This document shows positions 21,400 through 47,778 of a stretch of DNA of 58,621 bases, piece by piece. The first letter of the stretch is position 1. Every line of letters begins with the position of its first letter. The stretch lies in contig NZ_BADK01000748.1 in the NCBI RefSeq assembly GCF_000333595.1, forward strand, positions 1 to 58,621, written 5' to 3'. The position numbers and the translations under genes are program-made. The stretch is from Azospirillum sp. B506 (lineage in GTDB: Bacteria; Pseudomonadota; Alphaproteobacteria; Azospirillales; Azospirillaceae). The notes beneath the pieces were generated by a model. It was given only the letters and a program-made list of their open reading frames with translations. It was not told where the DNA came from and made no database searches.

Positions 21400-21472
21400 C
21401 TCAACTCCACATGGATCGATTCAGTGACGAGGCCTGTCGGGTGCGTGGCGAGAATGGCGCCCTGCCCTCATG

Positions 21473-22033: not shown

Positions 22034-22125
22034 GGAGGCGAGTCCTTGTTCCATCGGTTGCGTTCGATGGATCGGACCATGCCCCAGTCCCAAATTGCCG
22101 CGTAGGCGGGCTGCCCGACTAACGT

Positions 22126-23091
22126 TTATGCCTTCTGGGAATGATCCCGCTGGGAAGGGCGCCCACCCAACCCCACCACCTCCTCCGCCGCTGCTGCTGC
22201 CGCCGCACCGTCGCCGTTCACGATGGTGGCGACGAATTCCGCGAAGGCGCGCGCCTTGGTGCTGGCCAGCCGGCCGGTGGGAAACACCGCCCACAAATCG
22301 ATCGGCGGCAGCGTCCAGTCCTCCAGCACGCGCCGCACCGCCCCGTCGGCAAGCTCGGGACCGAACATCCAGTCGGACGCGACCGCCAGCCCCAGATCGG
22401 CCAGCACCGCCGCCCGGATCCCTTCCGCCGCGCTGACCCGCAGCCGGCCGCGCACCACCACCGACGCTTCGGTCCCGCCCTGCCGGAACGCCCAGCTGTT
22501 GCTGAGCTGGCTGTAGACCACCGCGTCGTGGTCGGCGAGGTCGGCCGGGGTCCGCGGCACGCCCGCGCGAGCCAGATAGGCGGGGGTCGCCACGACCGAG
22601 CGGCCACCGCTGGCGATCCGCCGCGCCACCGCAGTCGAATCCGACAGCGTGCCCATGCGCAGGGCGACGTCGATCCCTTCGGACACCAGATCGATCACCC
22701 GGTCGTCCAGGATCACCTCCATGTCCAGCTCCGGATGGCGGCTCAGGAACTCGGGCAGGCGCGGCACGATCAGCAGCCGGGCGAAGGTGGTCGCGGCGGA
22801 GATGCGCAGCCGGCCCGACAGGCCGGCCCCGGCGCCCCGCGCCTCCAGCTCCGCTTCATCGGCCTCCCGGATGGCGAGCCGGGCGCGCTCATAGAAGCGC
22901 AGTCCCGCTTCGGTGGGCGTCAGGCCATGCGTCGACCGCAGCAGCAGGCGCACCTGCAGCCGTTCCTCCAACTGTGCGATCGTCTTGGAGATGGCCGGCT
23001 GACCCACCCCGAGCTGCCGCGCCGCGCCCGAGAAGGAGCCGGTCTCCACCACCCGCACGAAGCTGGCCATCGCCTGCAATCGGTCCATCAT
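22126..23091 (-). CDS. LysR-family transcriptional regulator
   Basis: 321 residues. The N-terminal helix-turn-helix reads TGSFSGAARQLGVGQPAISK and then TIAQLEERLQVRLLLRS. The effector domain contains RLRISAATTFARLLIVPRLP and IDVALRMGTLSDSTAVARRI, as in CrgA-like LysR proteins. The C-terminal 30 residues are Ala-rich and low-complexity. It is divergent from the GST gene and lies upstream of the AhpD-like and SDR genes on its own strand, so it may control both groups. A 15-base palindrome touches its start region, suggesting autoregulation. Confidence 0.85.
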   Translation of the reverse strand: MMDRLQAMASFVRVVETGSFSGAARQLGVGQPAISKTIAQLEERLQVRLLLRSTHGLTPTEAGLRFYERARLAIREADEAELEARGAGAGLSGRLRISAATTFARLLIVPRLPEFLSRHPELDMEVILDDRVIDLVSEGIDVALRMGTLSDSTAVARRIASGGRSVVATPAYLARAGVPRTPADLADHDAVVYSQLSNSWAFRQGGTEASVVVRGRLRVSAAEGIRAAVLADLGLAVASDWMFGPELADGAVRRVLEDWTLPPIDLWAVFPTGRLASTKARAFAEFVATIVNGDGAAAAAAAEEVVGLGGRPSQRDHSQKA

Positions 23092-23092
23092 T

Positions 23093-23107
23093 ATTCCTGA
23101 CAGGAAT
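23093..23107. promoter_or_regulatory. LysR-type palindrome at the start of the LysR gene
   Basis: ATTCCTGACAGGAAT is a perfect palindrome around a central A and contains T-N11-A. On the minus strand its AGGAAT half supplies the ribosome binding sequence for the LysR gene that starts at 23091/23088, so a bound regulator would cover it. Confidence 0.6.
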
Positions 23108-23198
23108 TTCCGTTATCGCTCCAGTCGGACTGCCACCCGAAGTCTGGAATGGCGATACCTCTCCCATCGGCGACGACGCTGCAAGGGAGAAGCGAACC

Positions 23199-23822
23199 AT
23201 GATCGAACTTTATGCATTTGCGACGCCGAACAGCGTCAAGGTTCCGATCGCCTTGGAGGAGATGGGCCTCTCCTATGTCCTGAAGCCCGTCAACATCCGC
23301 CAGGGCGAACAGAAAGCCCCGGACTTCCTCGCGCTGAACCCGAACGCCAAGGTTCCGGTGCTGGTGGACGGGGCGCTGGTGCTGACGGAAAGCGCCGCCA
23401 TCCTCGTCCATCTCGCCGAGAAGACCGGCAGGCTGCTGCCGCCCGACGGTGCGGACCGCGCGCGGGTGTTCGAGCAACTGTTCTTCCACGCCTCCGCGCT
23501 CAGCCCGGCCTTCGGCAACGCGGGGTTCTTCAAGCGCCTCGCCGCCGAGCCGCAGCCGCTCGCCCAAGCGCGCTTCACCGCCGAGGCCAACCGCGTGCTC
23601 GACCGGCTCGACGCGCTGCTCGGCGAGCGCCGCTTCGTCGCCGGCGGCGACCTCACCATCGCCGACATCGCCCATTTCGGCTGGCTGTGGCGCCGCGAGT
23701 TCCCCGGCATGACGCTCGACGGCCGCCCCAACCTCGTCCGCTGGCTCGACGCCGTCGCCGCCCGGCCCGCCGTTCGACGCGCAATCGCCCGCATCGAGGC
23801 TCTGGTTCCCCAGGCCGCCTGA
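23199..23822 (+). CDS. Glutathione S-transferase family protein
   Basis: 207 residues from the ATG at 23199, preceded by AAGGGAGAAG. The thioredoxin-like N-terminal domain begins MIELYAFATPNSVKVPIALE, has NPNAKVPVLVD with the cis-Pro that binds glutathione, and TESAAILVHLAEKTG. The C-terminal helical domain includes FVAGGDLTIADIAHFGWLWR, the usual GST N-capping box. The N-terminal Ser in PNS fits beta/Nu-type GSTs, including YghU/YfcG-like disulphide-bond oxidoreductases. It is the first gene of a plus-strand set with a crotonase and a peroxiredoxin-like gene, and divergent from a LysR gene. Confidence 0.9.
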   Translation: MIELYAFATPNSVKVPIALEEMGLSYVLKPVNIRQGEQKAPDFLALNPNAKVPVLVDGALVLTESAAILVHLAEKTGRLLPPDGADRARVFEQLFFHASALSPAFGNAGFFKRLAAEPQPLAQARFTAEANRVLDRLDALLGERRFVAGGDLTIADIAHFGWLWRREFPGMTLDGRPNLVRWLDAVAARPAVRRAIARIEALVPQAA

Positions 23823-23864
23823 CACCGCCGATCCGAACCAAATCCAATGCAAGGAGTGACCCCG

Positions 23865-24635
23865 ATGGCCCGTTTCGAGAGTTACCGGACCGCCTTCGCC
23901 AATGCGCGCCTGACCCGTTCGGACAGCGGCGTTCTGGAAGTGACGCTGCACACAGACGGCGGCAAGCTCGTCTTCAACGGCCATACCCACGAGCAGTTCG
24001 TCGACCTGTTCCATCGGATCGGGTCGGACTCCGAGAACCGGGTGGTGATCCTCACCGGGTCGGGCGATGCCTTCATGGACGCCATCAGCCCCGAGGGGTT
24101 CGATTTCTTCAGCCCGCGCGGTTACGACAAGATCTTCCGCGAAGGCAAGAAAGTGCTGATGAACATCCTCGACATCGAGGTACCGGTGATCGCCGCCCTT
24201 AACGGACCGGTTCTGCTGCATTCCGAATATGCGCTGCTCGCGGACATCGTGCTGGCCACGCCGGAAACGGTCTTTCAGGACAAGCCGCACTTCGACTTCG
24301 GCATCGTTCCCGGCGACGGCGTCAACCTGCTCTGGCCGGAGGTGATCGGCAGCATCCGCGGCCGCCATTTCATCCTGACCCGCCAGGTTCTCGACGCCCA
24401 AACCGCCAAGGACTGGGGCGCCGTCAACGAGATCGTGCCGGCCGGCCAGCTGCTCGCCCGGGCGCATGAGATCGCCGAAGGACTGGCCGCCCTGCCGCCG
24501 CTCACCAGCCGCTACACGCGCATCGCGCTGACGCAGAAGCTGCGCCGGATCGTCGACGAAGGCGCCGGCTACGGCCTGGCGCTGGAAGGCATCAGCGCGG
24601 CCGAGGTCGCCCGCTCCGCCGCAGCGAACGGCTGA
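23865..24635 (+). CDS. Crotonase-superfamily protein resembling 6-oxocamphor hydrolase
   Basis: 256 residues from the ATG at 23865, chosen for AAGGAG eight bases upstream. It has the enoyl-CoA hydratase fold. The block FQDKPHFDFGIVPGDGVNLL resembles the 6-oxocamphor hydrolase segment FQDGPHFPSGIVPGDGAH, which holds catalytic His and Asp. GRHFILTRQVLDAQTAKDWG and AVNEI are also close to that enzyme. Such enzymes cleave cyclic beta-diketones by a retro-Claisen reaction without CoA. This is from memory of the family; sequence alone does not fix the substrate. It lies 42 bases after GST and 41 before the peroxiredoxin-like gene. Confidence 0.8.
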   Translation: MARFESYRTAFANARLTRSDSGVLEVTLHTDGGKLVFNGHTHEQFVDLFHRIGSDSENRVVILTGSGDAFMDAISPEGFDFFSPRGYDKIFREGKKVLMNILDIEVPVIAALNGPVLLHSEYALLADIVLATPETVFQDKPHFDFGIVPGDGVNLLWPEVIGSIRGRHFILTRQVLDAQTAKDWGAVNEIVPAGQLLARAHEIAEGLAALPPLTSRYTRIALTQKLRRIVDEGAGYGLALEGISAAEVARSAAANG

Positions 24636-24676
24636 TCCGCATTTTCCCTTCACTCCATACGACGAAGGATTTCGCC

Positions 24677-25354
24677 ATGTCGCTCCAGGACAAGCTCGAC
24701 GCCTTCAAGGCCGATTTCCAGGCGGGCAAGCCGCCCTACAGCGTCCCCCGCCCGGTGATCGAGACGATGCACCGCGCCACCGCCGAACTGATCGCCTCGG
24801 GCGCCGCCGGCCGTGCGCTCAAGGCCGGGGACAAGGCCCCCACCTTCACGCTCAACGACCCCGACGGCAAGGCCGTGTCGTCCACCGCCCTGCTGGCGGA
24901 GGGGCCGCTGGTGGTCAGCTTCTATCGCGGCGTCTGGTGCCCTTACTGCAACATGGAACTGCAGGCCTTGCAGACGGCGCTTGCGACCTTCCAGTCTCTC
25001 GGTGCAAGCTTGGTGGCCATCTCGCCGCAAACGGCCCCGAACAGCCGCAAGTCGATGCGTCAGAATGCGCTCGGCTTCCCGATCCTGTCGGACCCGCACA
25101 ACGACGTCGCCGCCGCTTTCGGCCTGCGCTTCGAGCTGCCCGATTATCTGATCGAGCTGTACAAGGGGCTGAAGAACGACCTGCCGGCGTTCAACGGCGA
25201 TGCGAGCTGGACCCTGCCGATGCCGGCCCGCTTCGTCATCGGGCAGGACGGAACGATCCTCTACGCCGAGGTCAACCCGGACTACACCCGCCGCCCCGAA
25301 CCCGAGGACATGCTGCCGGCCCTGCGCGGCGCCGGACGGACGGCGGTCGCCTGA
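24677..25354 (+). CDS. Peroxiredoxin-like (AhpC/TSA) family protein
   Basis: 225 residues. The thioredoxin-fold signature VSFYRGVWCPYCNMELQALQ has the CPYC pair, followed by VAISPQTAPNSRKS and ILSDPHNDVAAAFGLRFELP. The end is YAEVNPDYTRRPEPEDMLPA, nearly the same layout as the protein at 18754. It has no signal peptide. The family is described as redoxin or peroxiredoxin-like, with a thiol-peroxidase or disulphide exchange role likely. It is the third gene of the GST-crotonase-redoxin set, under the divergent LysR at 22126. Confidence 0.88.
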   Translation: MSLQDKLDAFKADFQAGKPPYSVPRPVIETMHRATAELIASGAAGRALKAGDKAPTFTLNDPDGKAVSSTALLAEGPLVVSFYRGVWCPYCNMELQALQTALATFQSLGASLVAISPQTAPNSRKSMRQNALGFPILSDPHNDVAAAFGLRFELPDYLIELYKGLKNDLPAFNGDASWTLPMPARFVIGQDGTILYAEVNPDYTRRPEPEDMLPALRGAGRTAVA

Positions 25355-25426
25355 TCCCTGTCGATCCACCCGCCTGTGCGACAACGCCTCCGCTCCCGAA
25401 CCGGGGCGGGGGGCTGGAGATCGACG

Positions 25427-25513
25427 ATGCACCGCAGTTTCCTGATCACCGGCGCGAGCGAGGGCATCGGCCTGGCGCTTGCGCAGCGGCTCTCCGCCGG
25501 CAAGAAGGCTGTC
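25427..25513 (+). pseudogene. Truncated short-chain dehydrogenase, N-terminus only
   Basis: From the ATG at 25427, with CTGGAG upstream, the frame reads MHRSFLITGASEGIGLALAQ and then RLSAGKKAV, a standard SDR cofactor-binding start. After about 29 residues the similarity ends and the sequence turns into unrelated DNA before the MFS gene tail. The remaining 200 or so residues of an SDR are absent. A deletion or rearrangement joined this stub to the downstream block; it would be the fourth gene of the GST set. Confidence 0.7.
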
Positions 25514-25602
25514 ATGGGCCCAAGGCCGGTCGAGGAGCCTGGTGATGAACATGCGTGCCAACGATCCTCCCCTTGTGTTGGGAATTCTTCGGCAATGCCC
25601 TC

Positions 25603-26829
25603 TCAGTTCGGTGCATGTTTCAGTGCGATCAGCAATGCGGGAATGCCGATGACCGCCGAGACCGGCATGACCGACCACGGTCCGGCATGATCGACGATCA
25701 CCCCTCCGACGAAGGCGCCGGCCGCAATGGCGCCGTTATAGGCGGACACGTAAAGCGAGGACGGCGCCTCGGGGCCGTTCAGATGGGCCGCCGCCTTGAA
25801 TACCCAGGTCTGCATAAGAACCGGCAGGGCGGTATAGGCGGCACCCCAGACCAGGAGAAGGGCAATGACAAGCCCGCGGTTCGTGCCGGCAAAGCCCAGT
25901 GCGGCGATGCTGGCGGTCAGGACGATCATCGTGACCAAGAGCGTCGGCCGGTATCCGCGCGCCATGATCGGCGCGATGCCGAAATTGCCCACCAGGCCCG
26001 CGGCGCCATAGGCCAGCAGCAGGCCGCCGATCCATGACGTCTCGAAGCCCGTGACCTGCTCAAGGAACGGCGCGATATAGGTGAAGGCAAGGAAATTCGT
26101 CATCATGATGAGTGCGGTCACATAGACCGCCGCGCGTAGGGGCGGTTCCCGCCATGCCTGTGCGACCGTGCTGTGCTTGCCGTCATGGCTCGCGGCGAGA
26201 TTGGGCAGGGTCAACCACATCGTGATGAAGACGGCGAGGGAAAGGATCGCGAGCGCGACGAAGACGATGCGCCAGCCGGCGTAATTGCCAAGGAAGGTTC
26301 CTGCGGGAATGCCGAGCACGGAGGCGAGCGCCAAGCCGCCATAGACCGCTGACGTGGCCCGAACGGCGTGCTTCCCGGGAACGATCCGCACCGCCATGCT
26401 GGCCGCCGTCGACCAGAAAATTCCGATGGCGGCGGCAACGGTCAGCCGGCTTGCCAGCAGCACGGCATAGGTCTGCGCGAAACAGGTCAGCACATTGCCG
26501 AACGTGCAGGCCAGGAGAAGGCTGAGCATCAGCCACTTGCGGTTCCAGCGGCGTGTCGCCGCCGTGAGCGGAGTTGCCGCAATCGCCACGAGCAAGGCAA
26601 ACCCCGTGACCAGGAACCCGGCCTGACCGAGCGACACGCCGACGCCATCCGCCATCTGAGGCAGGATGCCGATGGGCATCAGTTCAGTGCTGACGAAGGC
26701 GAATGTTCCGAGCGACAGGGCAACGACCGCGAGTTCTTCGGCCAGTGGCGAGCGCCGTTTGGTTTCTTCGATGAAGGCAGCCGCCGGGGCGGAGCCTCCA
26801 TGATGCTGATGAATGACGTTTTCAGTCAT
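25603..26829 (-). CDS. MFS exporter of the DHA1/SotB type
   Basis: 408 residues, about 12 membrane segments. Helix 1 reads FAFVSTELMPIGILPQMADG, the typical start of the SotB/YdhP/PbuE group of sugar or purine-ribonucleoside exporters. The block GIFWSTAASMAVRIVPGKH follows helix 4. The cytoplasmic N-terminus of about 30 residues has several His. It is divergent from a LysR gene, a classic inducible exporter pair. The substrate cannot be read from sequence. The stop lies just beyond the truncated SDR stub, so a rearrangement ended near here. Confidence 0.88.
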   Translation of the reverse strand: MTENVIHQHHGGSAPAAAFIEETKRRSPLAEELAVVALSLGTFAFVSTELMPIGILPQMADGVGVSLGQAGFLVTGFALLVAIAATPLTAATRRWNRKWLMLSLLLACTFGNVLTCFAQTYAVLLASRLTVAAAIGIFWSTAASMAVRIVPGKHAVRATSAVYGGLALASVLGIPAGTFLGNYAGWRIVFVALAILSLAVFITMWLTLPNLAASHDGKHSTVAQAWREPPLRAAVYVTALIMMTNFLAFTYIAPFLEQVTGFETSWIGGLLLAYGAAGLVGNFGIAPIMARGYRPTLLVTMIVLTASIAALGFAGTNRGLVIALLLVWGAAYTALPVLMQTWVFKAAAHLNGPEAPSSLYVSAYNGAIAAGAFVGGVIVDHAGPWSVMPVSAVIGIPALLIALKHAPN

Positions 26830-26908
26830 GCCAAATCTCCAGCTTTGGGGTTCGACGACGATGCCGGAGATCGATTGATGCGCATAACATCGATTTGTCG
26901 TTTAAATC

Positions 26909-26923
26909 ATGACTGCAAATCAT
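26909..26923. promoter_or_regulatory. LysR-type box between the exporter gene and LysR gene
   Basis: ATGACTGCAAATCAT has ATGA/TCAT arms and a T-N11-A core (26910-26922). AAATCAT occurs twice, at 26904 and 26917, thirteen bases apart. It lies in the divergent spacer. Confidence 0.5.
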
Positions 26924-26966
26924 ATATTGCCCGATGAGGCAAAGCGGGACGTCCGGAGTGTCGGGG

Positions 26967-27887
26967 ATGAATTTCGATGGTCGTATCCTGTCCGGCGTCG
27001 GCGTGCTGGCCGCTGTCGTCGAAAGAGGAACGTTCGCGGCTGCAAGCGAGATGCTCGGTCTCACCCCGTCCGGGGTCAGTCGCTCGATTTCGCGGCTGGA
27101 GACCCGGCTGGGTATCCGGCTTTTCGACAGGACGACCCGATCGCTGCACCTGACCGATGAAGGCGCGCGCTTCTATGAAGCCGTGGTTATGCATCTGGAA
27201 GGCATCGAAGAAGCTGCTGGCGCTGCATCGGGGGCTGCCAGTTCGGTGCGCGGCCGTTTGCGGGTCAATGTCGATCCGTTCTTTTCCGGGCTGGTGCTGG
27301 CACCGCATCTGCCCGGTTTCACAGAGCGTTATCCCGAGCTTCAGATCGAAATTCACACCCGCGACGATGTCGGCGATCTGGTCTCGGAAGGCATGGACAT
27401 CGCCGTCCGCTTCGGGCCGCAGCCTCCGTCGTCGCTGATTTCACGGCTCCTGCTGGAGACGCGCATCCTGACGGTGGCGGCGCCTTCTTATCTCGCGGCC
27501 CACGGCAAGCCGAAAAGGCCGGAGGATCTCTGTGATCACGCCTGCATCCAGTTCCGCAATCCCCTGACGGGACGGCCATTCGAGTGGGAATTCCGGCGCG
27601 GCGAACAGATCCTGCCTGTCCCGACGACAGGGCCGCTCCTGCTGACCGATGTCAACACAATGCTGCAGGCCTGTCTTGCAGGAGCCGGCGTGGCACAGGT
27701 CATGTCCCTGGGCAGCCGGCACTGGATCGCAAGCGGTGCGCTGATCGATCTCTTTCCAGACTGGCCCGACGAGACCTTTCCGCTTCACGCTATCCAACCG
27801 TCCCGCCGCCACCCGGCGGCCAAAGTTCGTGCCTTCCTGGATTTCTGCGCTGAGCTCGCGAGGAGTGGAGCGCCTGACGGGCGTTAG
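26967..27887 (+). CDS. LysR-family regulator of the divergent MFS exporter
   Basis: 306 residues from the ATG at 26967, with CCGGAG upstream. Helix-turn-helix region: RGTFAAASEMLGLTPSGVSR then SISRLETRLGIRLFDRTTRS. Effector domain: RLRVNVDPFFSGLVLAPHLP and VSEGMDIAVRFGPQPPSSL, of the CrgA-like type. The stop codon TAG lies inside the outer part of the IS4-type terminal repeat, so the last residues (DGR) may come from the insertion. The protein still has normal length. It likely controls the exporter at 25603. Confidence 0.85.
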   Translation: MNFDGRILSGVGVLAAVVERGTFAAASEMLGLTPSGVSRSISRLETRLGIRLFDRTTRSLHLTDEGARFYEAVVMHLEGIEEAAGAASGAASSVRGRLRVNVDPFFSGLVLAPHLPGFTERYPELQIEIHTRDDVGDLVSEGMDIAVRFGPQPPSSLISRLLLETRILTVAAPSYLAAHGKPKRPEDLCDHACIQFRNPLTGRPFEWEFRRGEQILPVPTTGPLLLTDVNTMLQACLAGAGVAQVMSLGSRHWIASGALIDLFPDWPDETFPLHAIQPSRRHPAAKVRAFLDFCAELARSGAPDGR

Positions 27888-27890
27888 CCC

Positions 27891-27917
27891 CAATACCGTG
27901 TCGTTAAGCCTGCCCGC
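27891..27917 (+). repeat. Left inverted repeat of the IS4-type element
   Basis: 27 bases identical to the inverse of 28664-28690. It directly follows the LysR stop codon region. Confidence 0.85.
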
Positions 27918-27956
27918 CCGTTGAAGGTCGCAGATCATGGTCTGCGGAGGGCGGTG

Positions 27957-28662
27957 TCATGGCGCGGACAGTGTCGGCGTTGCCTCGAGGGCTTGCCTAG
28001 CCCGGATCATCAGGTGGCGCAATGCGAAGTGGACAAGCAGCAGCCCATAGACCTCCTGCTCAACCAGATCGGCTCGGCGCGAGCGCAGCATCAACCGGCG
28101 GCCGGGCAGCGTCACCTTGATCTCGGCGAAGAGGACTTCCGCCTCCCAGCGCTCTTGGTACAGCGCGGCCAACCCGCCGGCGGGTGCGGTGGTGGGATCA
28201 AGCAATGCGGCGATCAGCCGATACACGGGCTCAGCCGCCGGCACACCGTCGAGCCGGTAGTCGATGACCCGAACCAGCACGCCTCCTTCCCGGCGGCGGC
28301 GATGCGCGGGCGAGACATACAGGTGGCTCAAGCAGGAGCCGTCCGGCAGCACCGTCTCGCACGCGAACACCTGATTGGCTCGCAGACGCCACAGCAGATC
28401 GGCGTTGGTGGCACAGGCCGCCCGCCACAGCCCGAAACCGACGAAGCCGCGGTCGGCCAGGCACAGCATGCCTGGCTGGAGCCGATCGAGCAGACGCCCG
28501 GCCAGCGTCGTCTCCGCCACGGTGTAGGCGTCGAACGCGGCGGCAAAGATCGCGTGGGTGCCGGTCTCCGCCAGGGCCAGCAGGCCGCAGCTGGGGAAGG
28601 CGCTTTGGCCGCGTGACGCCGCCGGTCGACCGAAGCGCGTGTCGATCTCGGCCGTGTCCGGC
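27957..28662 (-). pseudogene. IS4-family transposase, N-terminus missing
   Basis: The frame runs from the right repeat: LPDTAEIDTRFGRPAAS, GQSAFPSCGLLALAETGTHA, MLCLADRGFVGFGLW (second catalytic Asp), and YQERWEAEVLFAEIK, an exact Y-x2-R-x3-E-x6-K signature with the catalytic Glu. The first catalytic Asp and roughly 180 N-terminal residues of the family are absent. No usable start codon is seen before the ATG at 28520. The gene is dead. Confidence 0.85.
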
Positions 28663-28663
28663 A

Positions 28664-28690
28664 GCGGGCAGGCTTAACGACACGGTATTG
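28664..28690 (-). repeat. Right inverted repeat of the IS4-type element
   Basis: 27 bases, perfect inverse of 27891-27917. It leads straight into mid-gene transposase sequence, which shows an internal deletion. Confidence 0.85.
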
Positions 28691-28693
28691 CGG

Positions 28694-29518
28694 CTAGACG
28701 CCCTTAGTGCTCTCTGTGTCGCATGGAAAGGGAGATTCCAGTTTCTGACAGAATTCCTTCAGCTTTTCATTCGGAACCATGAAGAAATCCCAGTACGCAA
28801 CATGGTCGCAGATAGATTCCCACTCATCTATATTCGGAATATGAATAGAAAATATATCAGTTATGCTGTATCCAATTGATTTTGATATATTAAATATATC
28901 AGATTTTTTATAACCATATCTACTATAACCATTCCATCCATATTCTATACTTAATATTGGTCTAAATTTTTTTATAGAATCGATCCCTCCTTTGATACAA
29001 TCAATCTCCCCTCCTTCTATATCTATCTTTATATAAGAAACTCCCTCAAGATTTGTTGTATAATTATCAAGACATCTGACATCGACTTGCACTTGCTCAG
29101 GGTCGGCTCGCTCTGGATAAATATACTCTTTCCTTTTCAGCCCGCTCTCCTCAGGCGTGCCACGCGCAACAGTAAATTCTGAAACACCGTTGTAGTTTGA
29201 CAAAGCAACATTGTGACATTCAAACCAGGAGTAAGGCTTCAGCTTTTCGCTCGTGATCCTCCAAAAATAGTCAAGAGGCTCGAAAGCGATTACGCGGCCG
29301 GATTCCCCAACAATATCCACGAAATGCTGCGAATGCCTGCCGCTGTGCGCGCCGACATCTATTATTATGTCGCCTCTTTTTAAGAATCTACGATAGCTTT
29401 TTTCAAGAATGTACTCATAATCTATGTGCATCCCATATATATCTTTGAGACGGTTGATGAATAGTCCTTGCTGGTACAAGTACTCAGCCCTCTTTTTGTC
29501 TTCTGCGTTATTATTCAC
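28694..29518 (-). CDS. FkbM-family methyltransferase
   Basis: 274 residues. SAM-binding motif DIIIDVGAHSGRHSQHFVD at about 49-67, then VIAFEPLDYF and YIKIDIEGGEIDCI, the FkbM signatures. Such enzymes O-methylate sugars or other small groups in surface glycans and natural products. The DNA is much more AT-rich than the flanks, with rare codons such as ATA and TTA, pointing to recent transfer. The ATG overlaps the end of the large glycosyltransferase gene at 29511 by eight bases. The stop codon lies in the outer repeat of the IS4 element, so the C-terminal few residues (TKGV) may be altered by the insertion. Confidence 0.88.
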   Translation of the reverse strand: MNNNAEDKKRAEYLYQQGLFINRLKDIYGMHIDYEYILEKSYRRFLKRGDIIIDVGAHSGRHSQHFVDIVGESGRVIAFEPLDYFWRITSEKLKPYSWFECHNVALSNYNGVSEFTVARGTPEESGLKRKEYIYPERADPEQVQVDVRCLDNYTTNLEGVSYIKIDIEGGEIDCIKGGIDSIKKFRPILSIEYGWNGYSRYGYKKSDIFNISKSIGYSITDIFSIHIPNIDEWESICDHVAYWDFFMVPNEKLKEFCQKLESPFPCDTESTKGV

Positions 29519-32381
29519 AGTATATCATCTCCAGCTCTGGGTTGATGTAGCTGACAGCCGTGGCAATGTTACTCGTAGTATGGATGACAGTATCACATGA
29601 TGCCAAAAGGAATGTATCTATGATTACTTCCTCTGCCATGCGGATCGACCAACTCTTGGAATCGGCGGCTGTCAAGTGCTGAATCTGGTGCCCTTCAGCC
29701 ATTTGCTCTGTCAGGGATAGCTTGTTAAAACGCTCATCATCTTTAAGAGTTGTGCGCTTTACGTCGTTACGGAAGCAAACTCGATCCCCAAAGATTTCCT
29801 TGAAGCGATGAGTGATGGACTCCTGGTCTGTCGCAAGGAAGACAACATAGTTTTCATGCCCAAGTTTAGATATTTTCATCAATATATGATGAATATAAAG
29901 ATCCACAGTCGGCATACGAGCTCCTGGCTGCTCAATGCCGTGAGATGGATGTCGGACATGAGCGCCGATACAATATTTACCATTCATTTTTGTTCTTCTG
30001 AAAAATTCAATTTCTGTCCTAAGATTTTCCCTAAGAGAAACGTGTTTCCTGAGAAAGTTATTGTACCATTTCCGCCACTTCTTGAAATCATCTTTCTTAT
30101 AAAGCTTATATGCATGCACATACGTCAGAAGAGGCTCATTTTTCTCATTGTAATCATCATAGTATATAACGTCATTTTCCAGAAAATCCCGATCATTGTA
30201 GGCTTCTTCAGGCAGATCTATCTCATGGAGGGGATTGAATAGCTTCAGCCACAAATTCCCATCCTCAGGTCGTCCATAGCAGAAGCTTTGAAACTTGGAG
30301 GACTTTCTGTATTCCTGAATTCGATCAATTCGCCAGTCAGGGATCAGGTACTCCACTTCATCTCGGCCGATATTCCAAACCAGATGAGATATGAAAGTAT
30401 TGAAAACTGAAAGAAAGCCACCATCATGCCCAGGCACAACAATTCTTTGACGATCCTGTACACTGGAACGCCTCATCTTCTTCAGATCGGAAAATTTCCT
30501 GTACAAGCTCAAAGAATTTGTTTCCAGGTAATTTTTCTCAATGGAGTTCCTTTTCCCAAAAAAGACATCTTTGGGCTGAACTGCCGTCGAATAATTTTCC
30601 TTAAGATTCTCTATTGAGAATTGAGATGCCCACTTTTTACGCTCCGTAGACTTCAAATAATACTTTTGGAAATTGGTGTAGACATCAGAAAGAGCCTTCT
30701 GAACATCCAAAATATTGCAATCATATTGGAGTCCAATATTTTGTCCATCGATGGACTCGTACAGCGCTGGCTCAGGAATGTCTGATGGGATGCTGATCGC
30801 CATGCCGCTTTCGCATATGGCTTTATGCGCGCTGTTGTTTGAGAGTATGACCGGCATCCCAGCCGCCAGTGCCTGGCGTGGTGGAATCGAATATCCTTCG
30901 CCTTTTGAAATCTGCACAAAGCAGTCAAAAGACGCGAAAAGGCGCAGGAACTCGAAATCAGACAGGTTCCCACAGCTAAGTATGATGTTTTCCACTCCCA
31001 GAGTACTGATGTACTTGGAGAGCTCCTCATAGTGATTGTTGAAATTAACGTTGCTATGGATGATCAGCTGCACATCCTCCGCAGTTTTGAATTCACTGTG
31101 GAATGCGTCGATCAAGAGCTTTATGTTCTTGCGCTGTCCATATCCCGCGATACAGCCAAACAGAAACTGCCCGCTGCGGGCACGATTGGCGGTGCGGAAG
31201 CGACGAAGATGTTGGAACTCCCGTAGATCCAGCGCAAGCGGGAGTGTAAAGACCGGAACAGCCACACCGGAATTTTGAAGGACTTCAACGAGGTTTTCAC
31301 TGGGGACAAGAGCGGCGTCAAAATTTTCGTTAAGAATATTGACCCACTTTACCGGGATATAGCTTGAATCAAAAACAACGTACGCATAACGAACGGTGCT
31401 CGGCGGGACACGCTTAAAGTTGGTGTCGCCTTTCCCATTCCAGAGGACGTCTGTAAACACGGATACATCAGATGGCCGTGGTTCCGCTCCGTCCTGCACG
31501 ATATCAGCAAGCATGCTGTCATCTGTCTGATATACGTCGCTCTCATTTTTGCGAGTGTCAATTACCTGAAGTTCAATTCTATCTTTGAGACAGCGATAAA
31601 ATGCAAAAGAATGCATTCCAATGCCGTTGCTCATCGTCAGTTTCCCGACAATGCTCACAGGAACTGGCTTTTCAACATAGTCTTTGATTTTGTTGATATC
31701 GCGAATACCAGAAATTGGGAATCTGATATTCATAACGTTTTCTTTTTCCGATGAAACATCAAACGGGAAAAAATCACCATCGAGCGAGTTAGAAGAAATT
31801 GAGAGATTAAATTCACCGAAATTGGAATCAATTTGCATGATTCCATTTGAGTGCTTCTTGTGTTCTGTATTTGTGAATGCGCTTCTTTTGCAGACCGAAC
31901 CTCTTACATGCACAGTTTTCATCGGGTTGTCAAGATTGATGGCCCATCCGGACAGCTTTCCCTGATAATATCCACTCAAGGAAATTGCGAATGACTGCTC
32001 AGGAGATCGCAAAATAGAAAAACCGCTATTCCCACGCACTCGAATATTATCCGCCTTATGAGCAAGATAATTTAAGCATTCGGAGATATCTGCCCCCGAG
32101 AGCATATTTTCGAGAAACTTATTCCAACGGGGTGATTTGGTTATTGTCCCTCTGCTGCCATTCAAAAGTATTGCTACAACTTCGCAATGCTTGCGACGTT
32201 TCAGAAAAAACTCTTCTGAACTTGCCAGCAGGAGTATAAGATTTTCACTTGAAAGACCATTCGCCATTGCAACGGAGTAGTCTCTCAATCCAGTCGGGTC
32301 AACATGCCGTCCGAGAATGTTGGTGTATGCGTCAGATACTTCTTTCTCGAAGTTCGCTACTGAAGCAGTTTCTTTGCGCAT
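29511..32381 (-). CDS. Large multidomain glycosyltransferase: DUF4214, beta domain, GT4 and fucosyltransferase-like
   Basis: 956 residues from the ATG at 32381, with ACAGGAAA upstream; a GTG at 32477 would add 32 residues. Domains in order: a DUF4214-like helical unit (about 12-55, DAYTNILGRHVDPTGLRDYS); a beta-rich region (about 135-205, LSGYYQGKLSGWAINLDNP); a GT4-type part (about 240-590) with FGCIAGYGQRKNIKLLIDAF and VQISKGEGYSIPPRQALAAG; and a C-terminal part (about 640-956) with YCIGAHVRHPSH and VVFLATDQESITHRFKEIFG, resembling NodZ/GT23 fucosyltransferases. Two transferase units in one chain suggest stepwise addition of two sugars. The gene is AT-rich like its neighbour. The C-terminal family call is tentative. 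Confidence 0.75.
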   Translation of the reverse strand: MRKETASVANFEKEVSDAYTNILGRHVDPTGLRDYSVAMANGLSSENLILLLASSEEFFLKRRKHCEVVAILLNGSRGTITKSPRWNKFLENMLSGADISECLNYLAHKADNIRVRGNSGFSILRSPEQSFAISLSGYYQGKLSGWAINLDNPMKTVHVRGSVCKRSAFTNTEHKKHSNGIMQIDSNFGEFNLSISSNSLDGDFFPFDVSSEKENVMNIRFPISGIRDINKIKDYVEKPVPVSIVGKLTMSNGIGMHSFAFYRCLKDRIELQVIDTRKNESDVYQTDDSMLADIVQDGAEPRPSDVSVFTDVLWNGKGDTNFKRVPPSTVRYAYVVFDSSYIPVKWVNILNENFDAALVPSENLVEVLQNSGVAVPVFTLPLALDLREFQHLRRFRTANRARSGQFLFGCIAGYGQRKNIKLLIDAFHSEFKTAEDVQLIIHSNVNFNNHYEELSKYISTLGVENIILSCGNLSDFEFLRLFASFDCFVQISKGEGYSIPPRQALAAGMPVILSNNSAHKAICESGMAISIPSDIPEPALYESIDGQNIGLQYDCNILDVQKALSDVYTNFQKYYLKSTERKKWASQFSIENLKENYSTAVQPKDVFFGKRNSIEKNYLETNSLSLYRKFSDLKKMRRSSVQDRQRIVVPGHDGGFLSVFNTFISHLVWNIGRDEVEYLIPDWRIDRIQEYRKSSKFQSFCYGRPEDGNLWLKLFNPLHEIDLPEEAYNDRDFLENDVIYYDDYNEKNEPLLTYVHAYKLYKKDDFKKWRKWYNNFLRKHVSLRENLRTEIEFFRRTKMNGKYCIGAHVRHPSHGIEQPGARMPTVDLYIHHILMKISKLGHENYVVFLATDQESITHRFKEIFGDRVCFRNDVKRTTLKDDERFNKLSLTEQMAEGHQIQHLTAADSKSWSIRMAEEVIIDTFLLASCDTVIHTTSNIATAVSYINPELEMIYCE

Positions 32382-32483
32382 TTTCCTGTCTTCCCAAGGA
32401 CGACTTTTGACTAATGATTGATTGCAGAGCGGGACTGTGTGATGCTTTGTGTCAAGAATTACACAAACCCTAAACACAAAACT

Positions 32484-33956
32484 CTAGAGGGCTTCCTCTG
32501 TCGTTTGGTGATGGGTTAATGCTGTCCGTCCGTATGCATCATCCAATCGTATTATATCGTCTTCGCCGAGATATCCGCCAGTCTGAATTTCGATCAGATG
32601 CAGCGGCACTTTGCCGGGGTTTTCCAGCCTGTGAGGGGTCCCCATCGGGATATAGACGGATTGATCCTCGTAGAAGAAGAGACGCTCTTCTCCCCGGGTC
32701 ACCAGGGCGGTTCCCTGTACGACGATCCAGTGTTCCGCCCGGTGATGGTGCAGTTGCAGCGACAATCGCTCGCCCGGATTGACGACGATCCGCTTGACCT
32801 GGAACCGCTTGCCCCGGTCGACGCCGCGATAGGAGCCCCACGGCCGGTGGACCGTGGTGTGACAAGCGTGTTCGGGCCGTTCTTCGACCTTGAGACGTTC
32901 GGCGATCTGCTTCACATCCTGCGCATGGGCGCGGTCGGTGACGAGAACGGCGTCGTCGGTCTCAATCACGACGATGTTATCCAGGCCAGCCACGGCAACC
33001 AAGCGGTGGTCTGACCGTACATAAGTGTCGCGTGTATTGTGCAGGATGACGTCGCCTTGGGTCACATTGCCCGACGCATCCCGATTGCCGATGTCCCACA
33101 GAGCGGACCATGCGCCGACGTCGTTCCAGCCCATGCTGACCGGGACGACCGCAGCCCGCCCGGTCTTTTCCATCACCGCGTAATCGATGGAATCCGACGG
33201 GGAGGCGTCAAAGGCTGCGGAAGCAAGCCGGCAGAACATCAGGTCGCGTTCCGCCTGGGACAGGGCGGCGCGACAGGCTGCGACCATGGCGGGGGTGTGG
33301 CGTTCCAGCTCCGCCAGATAGGCGGCGGCGGAAAACAGGAAGATGCCACTGTTCCAGAGATAGGATCCGTCCTCAAGATAGGAGGTTGCGGTCGGTTGGT
33401 CGGGCTTCTCGACGAAACGCTCGACGGCACAGACACCGTCATGCCCCTCCAGTGCTGCGCCGGCCTTGATATAGCCATATCCGGTTTCTGCGTGTTCCGG
33501 TGTGATGCCGAAGGTCACCAGTGCTCCATCCGCGGCGGCGCCGGCCGCCCGGCTCACTGCCTCAAGAAAGCGCTCCGGATAGACGATGACGTGATCGGAC
33601 GGCATCACCAGCATCAGCGCATCCTTGTCCGTTTCCAGAAGCTTGAGGGCTGCGACGCAGGCGGCCGGGGCGGTGTTACGGCCGACCGGCTCCAGGATGA
33701 TCTCGGCCGGCTGGCAGGCCCGCGCACGCAGCTGCTCCGCCACGATGAAACGGTGCTCCTCGTTGCAGATGACGAAGGGCCTTGCGAAGCGTTTGTCGAC
33801 GATGCGAAGAACGGTTTCCTGCATCATCGTCAATTCGCTTGCCAAAGGCAGGAACTGCTTCGGATACAGCGACCGCGACAGCGGCCACAGCCGGCTTCCC
33901 GAACCGCCGGACAGGATGACGGGTGTGATCGTTCCCTCGACGCCTTTGGACTTCAT
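32484..33956 (-). CDS. manC: Bifunctional mannose-1-phosphate guanylyltransferase/mannose-6-phosphate isomerase
   Basis: 490 residues, AlgA/XanB/ManC type. The nucleotidyltransferase part starts with VILSGGSGSRLWPLSRSLYP (GTP-binding, catalytic Arg), has FVEKPD and MPSDHVI. The C-terminal cupin isomerase part has PWGSYRGVD, QLHHHRAEHWIVVQGTA and IPMGTPHRLEN, with the metal-binding His and Glu. It makes GDP-mannose, the precursor of GDP-fucose, GDP-rhamnose and related sugars for the island's transferases. It precedes the AT-rich fusion gene, whose likely ATG is about 100 bases downstream. High GC again, so the base composition changes sharply here. Confidence 0.93.
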   Translation of the reverse strand: MKSKGVEGTITPVILSGGSGSRLWPLSRSLYPKQFLPLASELTMMQETVLRIVDKRFARPFVICNEEHRFIVAEQLRARACQPAEIILEPVGRNTAPAACVAALKLLETDKDALMLVMPSDHVIVYPERFLEAVSRAAGAAADGALVTFGITPEHAETGYGYIKAGAALEGHDGVCAVERFVEKPDQPTATSYLEDGSYLWNSGIFLFSAAAYLAELERHTPAMVAACRAALSQAERDLMFCRLASAAFDASPSDSIDYAVMEKTGRAAVVPVSMGWNDVGAWSALWDIGNRDASGNVTQGDVILHNTRDTYVRSDHRLVAVAGLDNIVVIETDDAVLVTDRAHAQDVKQIAERLKVEERPEHACHTTVHRPWGSYRGVDRGKRFQVKRIVVNPGERLSLQLHHHRAEHWIVVQGTALVTRGEERLFFYEDQSVYIPMGTPHRLENPGKVPLHLIEIQTGGYLGEDDIIRLDDAYGRTALTHHQTTEEAL

Positions 33957-34074: not shown

Positions 34075-35151
34075 CTAAAGTTCCGGCTTGAATCCCATTT
34101 CCAGGCGGCGGTGGGCCATGGCGACGACACGCGACATGCCATCACGCAGCGAGATTTCCGGTTTCCAGCCGAGCGTCCGTTCCATGTGTTCCGGATTGCA
34201 GTAGCGCTGAGCAACGCCGACCGGGCGGTTGTCCGTCCCCTGCACATCGGCGTCGTACCCCTCGATGTCGATCATCAGCCGCGCCAGATCGCGGAAGGAG
34301 GTGAGAACGCCCGATCCGATATTGACCGCCGACCCGTCAGTGATCTTGCGGGCCGTACGGATGCAGGCCTGGCAGCAGTCGTCGATGTGGACGAAGTCGC
34401 GTCCCTGCAGGCCGCTGCCCCAGACGCGCACCGGTTTCTGGCGCGCTGCGACGCGCAGGGCGATCGCCGGAACCGGATAGGAGGGATCCTGGTCTTCGCC
34501 ATAGCCGGAGAAGGGGCGGACGACGCCGACATTCAGCCCGTACTGCTTGGCTGCGATGCGGCCCAGATACTCGCCGGTCAGCTTGCTCCATCCGTAGGTG
34601 AAGTCCGGCTTCCCCAGCGTATCGCCGAAGTCGATCATCGCCTCCTCCAGTGCCATCGCCTCGCCATCGCGCTGCAGCGAGATCGGGTAGGAGGCGCTGG
34701 AGGAAGCATACAGGATGCGCTCCGGGCGATTGACCTTGGCAGCCCAGAGGAAGAAGGCGGCGTCGATCGACAGGTCGATGCCGACGGCAAGCGGATCGCC
34801 GTCGATGATCATGCGCCCGCCGACCACCGAGGCCAGATGGTAAATCTCGTCGAACTTGGGCAGCATGGGGAAGTGCAGAGCCGGCCCCCGCTTGAGTTCG
34901 GCATAGGCGAGAACGGCGAAGTCGCTGTTGAGGAAATGAATGGTCTGGCCGTCGGCGGTGCGGAAATGCTCCACGCCGTCGTCGGTTCCGGCGGCAACGA
35001 GGGCCGGCGTCTCCCACTTGCTCGGGTGGCGGCCGATGCTCAGGTCATCGACGATCCAGATCTCATTGTTGTTTTCCGCCAACAGAGCTGCCGTAAGGTG
35101 CCTGCCGACAAAGCCACAGCCTCCCGTAATAAGGATTTGCTGCTTCTCCAT
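34075..35151 (-). CDS. NAD-dependent nucleotide-sugar epimerase/dehydratase
   Basis: 358 residues from the ATG at 35151, preceded by AAGGAG at nine bases; ATG or GTG codons just upstream are less well placed. Extended SDR: ILITGGCGFVGRHLTAALLA binds NAD, YASSSASYPIS carries the catalytic Ser region, and YGWSKLTGEYLGRI has the YxxxK pair. The sequence LLPKFDEIYHLASVVGGRMI fits the GDP-mannose 3,5-epimerase / GDP-sugar branch. With manC next door, a GDP-mannose-derived product is the best guess. Product identity is not certain. Confidence 0.85.
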   Translation of the reverse strand: MEKQQILITGGCGFVGRHLTAALLAENNNEIWIVDDLSIGRHPSKWETPALVAAGTDDGVEHFRTADGQTIHFLNSDFAVLAYAELKRGPALHFPMLPKFDEIYHLASVVGGRMIIDGDPLAVGIDLSIDAAFFLWAAKVNRPERILYASSSASYPISLQRDGEAMALEEAMIDFGDTLGKPDFTYGWSKLTGEYLGRIAAKQYGLNVGVVRPFSGYGEDQDPSYPVPAIALRVAARQKPVRVWGSGLQGRDFVHIDDCCQACIRTARKITDGSAVNIGSGVLTSFRDLARLMIDIEGYDADVQGTDNRPVGVAQRYCNPEHMERTLGWKPEISLRDGMSRVVAMAHRRLEMGFKPEL

Positions 35152-35367
35152 ACTACTCATCTCCTTCACTTATCCCTTTTCAGGGAAATATTCTGCCGTA
35201 AGAAGTTCTGGCACATGCACCCTGCCGATTCGGAATGGCTCTATCCGGAATGCTCCCAGGCGCTCGCCAGCCTTCCGTCCACCTGCTTTCTTCGATTGCC
35301 TGATCGGTTCTGCGCCCCGATTGGGGAAACGCTGTCCAGATGCCTATCCAGATGCATGGGCGCGCCC

Positions 35368-37368
35368 TCAGACCGCCGCATGGCCGAGCAGGGCGGCATA
35401 GCCCTGTCCGACGGCGATCGGCGCATAGGTCGCTCGCGTCAGTGCGCGTCCCTGGTCCGCAAGCCGGCATCGCAGACACGGGTCTTCGACCAGCCGGCGC
35501 ATCCACCAGGCGGCGTGGTCGACATCGGGATCGGCCCAGGACAAGCCGTCGGCGAAGGGATATTCCCCGGGCGCTACGGCCCGCATCCCGTGGTCTACCA
35601 GCGCGGCGGTACCGGGCGTGGTGAAATCCATGTTTCCCGAAAAACCGGTGACGATCGCCGGCTTGCCCAGCATCATCGCCTCGGCGATGCCGCGTCCGAA
35701 CCCTTCCGCCCGGTGCAGGGACAGGAAAGCGTCGCAGGACCGGTACAGGTCGAGCACGGCCGCCTTGTCGAACGTGCGGTCGACAATGAAGATCCGCGGG
35801 TCGGCGGCCGCCGCGTCCAGGATTTCCCGCCATACGGGGTGTTCGGCAACGGCCCGCATCGCCTTTATCACCAGCCCGACCGGTTCACGACCAAGCGGGA
35901 AAGCCTGCTGGAAAGCGCGCACGCAGGCCTGCGGATTCTTCCGGGAGAAGCTGGACAGCGCGTCGAAGGCGAACACGAACAGGAAGCGGTCGTCCGGGAG
36001 CCCGAAATCGGGCCGTTGCAGATTGGCGGTGTCATCGGTGGAGACTGCCGGCGGCAGGTGACGCACCGGCTTGGGGCTGCTCTTCCGATAGGCATCGAAG
36101 CTGTAGCGGCTCGATGCCCAGATCTCGTCGACGAAGTCATAGGCATGGCGCCAAGCCGACGGCCATTCCGGCAGTTCCCACGGCCAATAGCCGATCGTAT
36201 GGCGTCCCTCGAACAGGCTTTTTCCGTCTGTCGCCGCCAGCCTTGCGGTCTCTATCCCGGTGGTGCAGAGCAAATTGACCGCATAGGGCAGCCGGTCGCC
36301 GATCAGGGACTGGACGCTGTGATCGTCCTGGGAAACCTCCCGCCCCGGCTCTATGTTATAAATGCTGAACGGCACCCCCGCGGCCTGGAGGGCGAAAGCA
36401 GCCTGGCGGACATCCTCGCCGATGCCTAGCTGCCCGCGGGCATAGCCGATGAGATTGACCCCCTTCGCCATCTCAACGGCCCCATGCCGGATCGCCGGCG
36501 CCGCCACATCCGACTGTACGGAGGCTGCGGCAAGCCGTTCCAGCAGCGGATGCGCCCGGCGTCCATCGCTTTCGGCCCACTGCGCAAAGACGGGATCGCC
36601 AGGGTCGGGAAAGCGCCTTTGCAATGCCGGGGCGTTCGACCAGATCATCGCCGAAGCTATGCTTACGGCGGGAGCCCTGTCGCTGACGGGGGATTTCAGG
36701 ATCCGTATCTGCCCGTCGTCCAGCAGGGCATCGAGCCGCAGTTCGGCCAACCCTGTGGTGAAATACCAGATGATCAGGGCCGCACGTCCCCGCTTGCTGT
36801 CGAGAGGAAAAGCGGCCTGAAGCTCCGGTCTTTGTTCCCACAGGCGTTGCATCAGCCGGGTGACGGGCTGCAGCCCGCCGGCCGACAGGGTGTCGACCGG
36901 TTCGTTCAGGTAACGCTTCTGTTCGTCGGTGACGAAGCGCCCGAGTTCCAGTTCGGCCATGCCATGGGTGAAGCACCACCAGACGAATTCCTGCTGCCCG
37001 GGCACCGTTCGAAGATCGAAGTTCGCCTGCAGGTCGGCGCGCATTGTCCAGATCTGCTTCAGAAAGCGGGTCAGCACCGGGCGCACCGCCGGAAAAGCCT
37101 CCGGAGCAGGCTCGGTCAACAGGGGCTGCTCGATCCCAACCTCGCGGAGCGCGCGATACTCCCGTGTGCCGTGAAGGAGCAGCCAGCAATCGAAGCTCGC
37201 CCGGTCCTCCTTGAACAGAAGGCGCAAATCCTCACGGGTCAGCCAGATGGTCTCCTTCACGGCGTCCAGCCAGCGGTCGTTTGCCGGGACATCCGTCGGG
37301 ACTTGGTCCCCGGAGGCTGGGGGCTGGGCGGCATCCATGCCCGGCGACGGGGCATGCGGCCTGCTCAC
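35368..37368 (-). CDS. Large GT4-type glycosyltransferase with an N-terminal helical domain
   Basis: 666 residues from the GTG at 37368, which overlaps the upstream stop as GTGA and follows GAGG. The N-terminal 290 residues are repeated helical units (for example VTRLMQRLWEQRPELQAAFP and VLTRFLKQIWTMRADLQANF), each rich in Trp and Arg, of unknown role. The C-terminal half is GT4: KGVNLIGYARGQLGIGEDVR, FAFDALSSFSRKNPQACVRA and SLHRAEGFGRGIAEAMMLGK with the EGFG/E motif. It should transfer a sugar from a nucleotide donor in the cytoplasm. Translationally coupled with the GT2 gene upstream. Confidence 0.85.
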   Translation of the reverse strand: MSRPHAPSPGMDAAQPPASGDQVPTDVPANDRWLDAVKETIWLTREDLRLLFKEDRASFDCWLLLHGTREYRALREVGIEQPLLTEPAPEAFPAVRPVLTRFLKQIWTMRADLQANFDLRTVPGQQEFVWWCFTHGMAELELGRFVTDEQKRYLNEPVDTLSAGGLQPVTRLMQRLWEQRPELQAAFPLDSKRGRAALIIWYFTTGLAELRLDALLDDGQIRILKSPVSDRAPAVSIASAMIWSNAPALQRRFPDPGDPVFAQWAESDGRRAHPLLERLAAASVQSDVAAPAIRHGAVEMAKGVNLIGYARGQLGIGEDVRQAAFALQAAGVPFSIYNIEPGREVSQDDHSVQSLIGDRLPYAVNLLCTTGIETARLAATDGKSLFEGRHTIGYWPWELPEWPSAWRHAYDFVDEIWASSRYSFDAYRKSSPKPVRHLPPAVSTDDTANLQRPDFGLPDDRFLFVFAFDALSSFSRKNPQACVRAFQQAFPLGREPVGLVIKAMRAVAEHPVWREILDAAAADPRIFIVDRTFDKAAVLDLYRSCDAFLSLHRAEGFGRGIAEAMMLGKPAIVTGFSGNMDFTTPGTAALVDHGMRAVAPGEYPFADGLSWADPDVDHAAWWMRRLVEDPCLRCRLADQGRALTRATYAPIAVGQGYAALLGHAAV

Positions 37369-47713: not shown

Positions 47714-47778
47714 CGCGGCGGTCCGGTGTGGTGGCGGGGGAAGACGGCGCTATCGGTAGAAGCCGGAGGGCGGGCTTG

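Follow-up and report, generated by a model that had tools for sequence, protein, structure and literature searches.

Gene content and borders of the AT-rich block

We analysed a window of Azospirillum sp. B506 DNA, meaning the whole stretch of 58,621 nucleotides, in which two minus-strand genes lie between an IS relic and manC. The first gene (28694..29518) encodes an FkbM-family methyltransferase of 274 aa, which scored above both curated cut-offs of that family (PF05050, 65.3 bits, cut-off 22.7; TIGR01444, 87.6, cut-off 37.7). The second (29511..32477) encodes a fused glycosyltransferase of 988 codons from a GTG, carrying DUF4214, a GT4 domain and a NodZ/FUT8-like C-terminal domain. The GTG at 32477 is probably too early a start; the ATG at 32381 (codon 33), preferred because it is preceded by AGGAAA, would give 956 aa. 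The two open reading frames overlapped by 8 bases (29511-29518), as originally noted. That they travel as a pair is suggested by this overlap only, as the pair turned up in a single copy.

The base composition of the two genes was then compared with the remaining 39 window genes, picked mechanically. The GC content was 0.399 for the methyltransferase and 0.438 for the fused transferase (GC3 0.41 and 0.47), compared with 0.618-0.735 for the others. Leave-one-out codon adaptation was 0.290 and 0.323 (z -3.6 and -3.3), so both genes fell more than 3 SD below the 33 other window genes of at least 200 aa (mean 0.673, SD 0.106, minimum 0.480), and the summed codon-frequency distances were 15.95 and 13.74, with a maximum of 9.23 among the other genes. 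Calculated in 100-base steps, GC fell from 69 to 46 per cent at 28701 and recovered at ~32600, within the final ~120 bases of manC, giving sharp composition borders. These measures agreed with the original prediction that the pair is foreign in composition and codon use. The same prediction called manC GC-rich, which is true relative to the block, but its GC of 0.618 is the lowest among the other 39 genes.

The IS relic (27885..28696) contained 33-nt terminal inverted repeats (27885-27917 and 28664-28696, 97% complementary) and an incomplete transposase, whose remnant covered DDE_Tnp_1 positions 60-198 of 200; its relatives are annotated as IS4-like. The methyltransferase stop codon TAG formed the outer three bases of the inverted repeat. 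Beyond the relic lay a segment with redox genes, an MFS transporter and a LysR regulator (20575..27887), colinear and 92-94% identical in the related genomes G025 and G032, where it is located away from the glycan core and where homology stopped at the relic. From 21614 the segment was also present in G026 (91-93% identical), on an 8-kb contig too short to place relative to the core. By these alignments, the relic is the seam between the island and a segment that is located differently in two relatives.

We consider it unlikely that exactly this pair arrived in a single recent import with the neighbouring IS element as its vehicle. The sharp composition borders, the relic abutting the methyltransferase stop codon and the absence of the fused gene from 44 other genomes of the genus are compatible with such an event, whereas the IS is shortened (0.81 kb, the end matches in G038 being about 1.7 kb apart), flanks the pair on a single side and left no second copy in its own genome beyond a 27-base match (40 of 162 candidates scored; assembly of 1142 contigs), and the locus varies between relatives anyway. 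The relic noted at one border is real, but a role as vehicle is unsupported, its other flank being the segment which in G025 and G032 is not beside the core.

Domains and relatives of the two proteins

In the fused transferase, DUF4214 (residues 47-90) matched its Pfam model above the cut-off, followed by a 'GWA' stretch at residue 177 whose likeness to a beta-sandwich module was judged by eye, without tool support. The GT4 domain (residues 428-564 by Pfam, region about 278-570) scored 44.0 bits over residues 428-555 against the curated PF00534 cut-off of 26.4. The EX7E motif is typical of GT4; here it reads EX7Q (E527-x7-Q535), so that the GT4 domain may be altered or inactive. The E of EX7E was retained in the 801-aa window protein, the 744-aa protein of L070 and the 720-aa protein of G024, and no clear site was seen in the 692-aa, 1028-aa and G036 445-aa proteins. 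Single-sequence AlphaFold2 models reached a mean pLDDT of 33 for the whole protein and 32 for the C-terminal domain, a putative GT-B fold.

The C-terminal domain (residues about 651-988) was compared by hhalign with a six-row NodZ-family alignment, one row of which (G483) had originally been found using this domain as query. The result was 96.7%, with 1.0 and 0.2% for two control proteins. With phmmer, the match to NodZ 2hhc had an E value of 6e-4 for the domain alone and 0.018 for the whole protein, and the score against the Pfam NodZ model was below the cut-off (13.3 bits versus 28.3). The H and R of an HxR motif (H840-V-R842) were kept in 7 of 7 aligned rows; a key role is described for the equivalent arginine of POFUT1 and of the alpha-1,2 and alpha-1,6 fucosyltransferases (PMC3180450). 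These comparisons suggest that the C-terminal domain is distantly like the GDP-fucose transferases NodZ and FUT8. Together with the FkbM and GT4 matches above their cut-offs, they agree with a putative glycan-decorating function of the pair, as first proposed.

The fused protein had no orthologue in the 44 other genus genomes, where the remaining matches were confined to residues 276-578 at no more than 38% identity. Against genome contigs, six exact 8-residue patterns found no relative, a search that low-identity relatives could escape, and neither the fused protein nor the C-terminal alignment matched viral contigs. Among plasmids and phages, the matches listed (20 of 58 plasmid and 10 of 75 phage records) lay within residues 278-628, and the C-terminal domain had no match. 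This domain had no relative in the 384 other genomes of the class sample and one weak relative (G483, E 7e-4) in the 397 other genomes of the phylum sample, the two samples overlapping.

In the phylum sample, 13 of 398 genomes matched the Pfam NodZ model, and our own genome gave no match; the model misses the window's own domain, so similar fusions could escape this search. The clearer matches were in frames of ~300-400 aa, and the frames matched in G460 and G654 were short or broken. The matches revealed no further GT4-NodZ fusion. Two weak long-frame ones were read by eye: that in G437 (1269 aa) appeared oxidase-like and was discarded as a chance match, and that in G736 resembled a NodZ-like domain followed by repeats and adjoined a GDP-fucose-synthase-like gene. 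A PF05830 search of the genus gave no match, but its 14 controls were equally silent, and hence it is no proof of absence. A combination of DUF4214 with a glycosyltransferase was not found in the open-access papers searched. The GT4-NodZ/FUT8-like fusion is the unusual part of the locus. In support of the function proposed below, a Dinoroseobacter plasmid carried a NodZ-family gene together with gmd, GDP-L-fucose synthase and FkbM genes.

For the methyltransferase, the best plasmid relative was 38% identical (Antarctobacter heliothermus pSMS3-2) and adjoined a glycosyltransferase gene. The methyltransferase alignment found 23 FkbM relatives in genome contigs, at no more than 32% identity, and viral contigs held 68 distant FkbM loci; within the genus, the search covered 13 slots and one further member from the class sample. 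The protein searches thus yielded no donor group and no close relative of the fused protein. With no donor identified, the predicted 'recent' date of the import is unsupported.

It is very improbable that the two genes are decaying, functionless leftovers. Such decay would fit the altered GT4 motif and an IS relic that extends to the methyltransferase end, but the 988-codon frame has no internal stop and is followed by an overlapping second frame, the DUF4214, GT4 and FkbM matches exceed their cut-offs, HxR is kept, and the SAM-binding stretch of the methyltransferase appears intact by eye.

The conserved glycan core and its variable slot

On the side opposite the IS relic, the genes described here, up to the end of the glycan core, are on the minus strand. 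The first, manC (32484..33956; TIGR01479, 708 bits, cut-off 373), encodes a mannose-1-phosphate guanylyltransferase/mannose-6-phosphate isomerase and is predicted to supply GDP-mannose and to mark the slot border; the G039 manC was 78% identical and adjoined a different cassette. It is followed by a gene for an NAD-dependent sugar-nucleotide epimerase/dehydratase (34075..35169), whose best NCBIfam model was GDP-L-fucose synthase (95.7 bits versus a cut-off of 500), and by a gene for a 692-aa GT4-type glycosyltransferase (35368..37446) with relatives 53-67% identical in G024, G032, G039, G028 and G017. The conserved core (37365..50118) comprises seven genes from GT2 to SIS isomerase: GT2 (912 aa), GT4 (801 aa), TPR-GT41 (666 aa), TPR protein (520 aa), methyltransferase (274 aa), TPR-GT41 (567 aa) and SIS isomerase (195 aa). 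The 666-aa GT41 was 78-94% identical in 13 relatives. A gmd gene scored above its cut-off elsewhere in the genome (G000:C1125), indicating that GDP-6-deoxy sugars can be made. The pair adjoins manC and lies beside a conserved core, in line with the predicted existing glycan island, and the cluster probably lies on an Azospirillum accessory replicon.

We then compared the stretch beside the core in the 13 core-bearing relatives. Neither gene of the pair had an orthologue in any of them, of the same composition or otherwise (about 6 kb of slot side in G016), and the import remained unrefuted. The results showed a conserved flank with differing gene content among relatives, together with deviating G+C and mobile-element traces, as in a variable island. 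At least one 1-kb interval below 50% GC was present in the slots of 8 relatives and absent from those of 5. Beside manC, G032 and G039 carried a GT2-GT4 gene (751 and 744 aa, 80% identical) and an FkbM gene (432 and 396 aa, 52% identical), the G032 manC being a 207-aa fragment. The G036 slot held a GT2-WbsX fusion of 925 aa and a methyltransferase, and the G013 slot a TPR-GT2-GT fusion of 1736 aa and a methyltransferase. Two AT-rich G025 slot genes were scanned and matched no transferase or methyltransferase family.

Slot genes of at least 200 aa were counted in the 14 core genomes (our own and the 13 relatives) by mechanical picking, which includes some spurious ORFs; a relative was defined by at least 45% identity over 60% of the shorter protein. 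Among genes with GC below 0.55, 2 of 20 had a relative in another of the 14 genomes, compared with 60 of 98 genes with GC of at least 0.55 (45 of 83 after removing orthologues of conserved neighbours). These counts bear on whether the pair are old residents whose AT-rich composition was kept by selection or chance and is no sign of import. AT-rich genes do recur at the slot in relatives, so this composition may typify the gene class, and no donor was found. However, same-class glycan genes in the same cluster have a GC of 0.62-0.72, and most AT-rich slot genes occur in one genome only, a pattern not predicted by vertical descent; we regard long residence as improbable. Import of the pair is largely supported, but the pair is no special case: the relatives' slots hold other genes, mostly private and in many cases AT-rich, and several of these are fused transferases accompanied by methyltransferases, which suggests ordinary surface-coat gene swapping.

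Proposed function and comparison with known systems

The locus is likely a single cassette occupying a variable slot within a surface-glycan cluster, and its fused transferase would add two sugars and its FkbM enzyme would O-methylate. In this model, the core (GT41/TPR transferases, GT2, GT4 and SIS isomerase) would build the common part of the glycan, and the outer sugars would be determined by the slot genes, which differ between species and are often AT-rich; several of these encode long fused glycosyltransferases and are accompanied by methyltransferases. GDP-mannose would come from manC, and gmd would allow GDP-6-deoxy sugars. Two sugars would be added successively by the fused protein, one by the GT4 domain and a fucose or related 6-deoxyhexose, taken from a GDP-sugar, by the NodZ/FUT8-like C-terminal domain, after which the coupled FkbM enzyme would O-methylate the added sugar at a hydroxyl. 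An Azospirillum O-polysaccharide is reported to contain partly 2-O-methylated rhamnose (PMC4902059). The cassette would derive from a source richer in AT, with the exchange taking place between the manC side and the opposite side.

A bolder reading, which we hold as doubtful, is that the fused protein is a new type of bifunctional enzyme, whose C-terminal domain founds its own GDP-sugar transferase family near GT23/GT65 behind a GT4 and an N-terminal, DUF4214-bearing targeting part. With its own methyltransferase included, one swapped cassette would both fucosylate and cap a surface glycan. If the fused enzyme works as in the cassette model above, it would represent a compact GDP-sugar transferase from a sparsely sampled group and might serve as a tool for making fucosylated, O-methylated glycans. 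Under the cassette model, the swap itself is ordinary, variable slots having been published for other glycan islands, and a plant-associated Azospirillum is suggested to alter its surface sugars by cassette exchange beside a fixed core.

The methyltransferase resembles known FkbM enzymes at the level of both family models, and the GT4 domain resembles PF00534 by score and differs from it in having EX7Q instead of EX7E. NodZ/FUT8 (GT23) is described as grouping with the GDP-fucose transferases of GT37, GT65 and GT68 (PMC7014118). The C-terminal domain shares with these an aligned HxR motif and TD block and the 96.7% profile comparison, but differs in its identity of about 20-25%, in its sub-cut-off Pfam score and in being fused behind a GT4 domain. 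Flagellin glycosylation islands are described in Enterobacteriaceae (PMC4875605) and Geobacillus (PMC5109656) as variable regions of lower G+C with transposases, sugar-nucleotide genes, variable glycosyltransferases, and FkbM and other methyltransferases, all features similar to those found here, and the enterobacterial islands share GT41 enzymes with the Azospirillum core. The present locus differs from them in that its glycan target is putative and in its pairing of a GC-rich conserved core with a variable, AT-rich end.

The AT-rich gene pair and its surroundings

The pair consists of two minus-strand genes: 28694-29518 encodes a methyltransferase of the FkbM family and 29511-32477 a long fused glycosyltransferase, with manC (32484-33956, minus strand) beside the latter. 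The IS relic (27885-28696) comes next after the methyltransferase in minus-strand order, and a LysR regulator and an MFS transporter lie beyond it, on the far side from the pair. The pair was markedly richer in AT than the 39 remaining genes picked in the window, and its codon use fell beyond the range of 33 comparison genes from the window. The original prediction had described a compositionally odd pair with an eight-base overlap and an IS relic on one side, and all of this was borne out.

A variable slot beside a conserved glycan core

The best plasmid match to window positions 35.4-40.0 kb was an A. oryzae plasmid, and as far as about 50.9 kb the gene order of this plasmid and of the window was largely the same. 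The 666-aa TPR-GT41 core protein had 78-94% identity in 13 other genus genomes, the next best matches being at about 60%. Two ORFs near the core (52696-54030 and 50162-50878) had no Pfam match at the thresholds used. One relative, G032, carried the GT41 gene and its neighbours twice at equal identity (contig C1 at 6.07 Mb, and contig C3), perhaps through duplication or an assembly effect. A review (PMC7716537) states that megaplasmid changes in Azospirillum affect social behaviour and that LPS structure is affected by genome dynamics.

We took the slot-side stretch of the GT41 gene from all 13 relatives and compared the genes. In none of the 13 stretches did either gene of the pair have a relative with at least 45% identity across 60% of the shorter protein; the closest was a 29% match of the GT4 domain to a 445-aa protein in the G036 slot. 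The original prediction had named close orthologues with the same composition at this locus in all relatives as evidence against its reading; orthologues of either gene were found in 0 of 13 stretches. The 912-aa GT2 neighbour was common to 6/13 relatives, the 801-aa GT4 protein to 7/13, the 692-aa GT4-type protein to 2/13, and manC to one (G032, as a fragment). Outside the genomes with a close GT41, relatives of the 692-aa protein occurred in G039, G028 and G017, and one of manC in G039.

We then counted slot-side genes of at least 200 aa in 14 genomes, those of the 13 relatives and that of the window, using mechanical gene picking and author-set thresholds, the genes within one genome not being independent. 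Among genes with GC below 0.55, 2 of 20 had a relative in a second genome of this set; among those with GC of at least 0.55 the figure was 60 of 98, or 45 of 83 after removal of conserved-neighbour orthologues (Fisher p = 3e-4). The slot contained 1-kb windows below 50% GC in 8/13 relatives (down to 33% in G025) and none in G034, G018, G044, G027 and G016, the G016 stretch ending early at a contig end.

The seam at the IS relic

Window positions 20575-27887 were colinear with G025 and G032 at 92-94% identity, and this homology stopped at 27877-27887, at the IS relic. In G025, the matching segment was on contig C2 and the close GT41 on C6; in G032, the segment was at 7.37 Mb of C1, and the GT41 copies were at 6.07 Mb of C1 and on C3. 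G026 also matched from 21614, on an 8-kb contig uninformative on place. Because the homology ends at the IS relic and the segment lies elsewhere in G025 and G032, the relic is the meeting point of two histories, that of the segment and that of the glycan island. The repeat cores are flanked by TTAG at one end and CTAG at the other. Such flanks would agree with a target duplication of 4 bases in which one base differs, or with recombination between two copies. Among the transposase's relatives, some carry the annotation IS4-like.

At window position 25497, three relatives' stretches (L133, L134, L135) carried about 1.5 kb of extra DNA in this otherwise colinear redox/MFS/LysR segment. After the LysR stop codon, where the window has the IS relic, stretches L128, L129 and L130 from three relatives had different sequences, IS-like by eye, two of the three directly behind CTAG; the point after the LysR gene is possibly an insertion hot spot.

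Fused transferases, sugar supply and comparison with known islands

The FkbM methyltransferase scored above the Pfam and NCBIfam cut-offs, as did the DUF4214 and GT4 domains of the fused protein above theirs. In phmmer, residues 651-988 of the fused protein hit NodZ 2hhc (E = 6e-4; whole protein, E = 0.018). By hhalign they scored 96.7% with an alignment made up of five proteins annotated as NodZ-family and a relative from G483, a row originally found with residues 651-988 as query; the controls gave 1.0% (methyltransferase) and 0.2% (692-aa transferase). The histidine and arginine of the HxR motif were retained. When solved structures were searched with a profile including the window sequence, fucosyltransferases came up, NodZ and FUT8 among them, which adds little because 6/7 profile rows were NodZ-like. 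The Pfam NodZ score was under the cut-off; we therefore conclude that the C-terminal domain probably acts as a GDP-fucose transferase does, but leave it outside the NodZ family. What is unusual here is the GT4 + NodZ-like fusion, and the searches made returned no second one, although distant ones could be missed. In phylum-sample genome G736 (L221, 1412-3976), one long frame held a NodZ-like domain followed by repeats by eye, adjoining a GDP-fucose-synthase-like gene.

We scanned 16 slot proteins from six relatives for families. The G036 slot encoded a 925-aa GT2-WbsX fusion, a GT4, a methyltransferase and a 339-aa protein without a match. In G013 the slot proteins were a TPR-GT2-GT fusion of 1736 aa, a methyltransferase and one of 544 aa whose GT2 match stayed below the cut-off. 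Beside manC, G032 and G039 had a GT2-GT4 fusion (751/744 aa, 80% identical; the G039 copy was scanned) and FkbM enzymes, and G032 also had another methyltransferase as well as a 217-aa protein that gave no match. The G024 slot held a GT4-DUF4214 fusion and a sulfotransferase, and genes with the same lengths and names are in the A. oryzae plasmid record. Two G025 genes (L073, 14629-16839, minus, and 10843-11958, plus), both at 33% GC, gave weak TPR matches only for one and no family match for the other. A long fused transferase and a methyltransferase thus occurred together in 4/6 scanned relatives. In G032 and G039, the small protein next to manC has a GWAFD stretch that resembles the GWA stretch of the fused protein's N-terminal part; blastp of that part against the small G032 protein gave no match, and homology is only suggested.

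A gmd gene lies elsewhere in the genome, and next to it is a further match to the gmd model that stays below the cut-off. A 6-deoxyhexose side group would fit the supply of GDP-mannose by manC, the gmd gene and the GDP-fucose-transferase-like domain, and O-methylation of that group would fit the FkbM enzyme; any link of the cassette to a given glycan is one that we infer. An Azospirillum O-polysaccharide that contains D-fucose and L-rhamnose, the latter partly 2-O-methylated, is known (PMC4902059).

The observation behind the original prediction holds, and its reading as import into an existing island is, in kind, probably correct; we regard the case as ordinary within a known class. A Dinoroseobacter shibae plasmid (L137, 1-3954) parallels the cassette, with a NodZ-family gene, gmd, GDP-L-fucose synthase, FkbM and sulfotransferase genes. 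The class is that of the glycan islands described in PMC4875605 and PMC5109656, which are variable and low in G+C.
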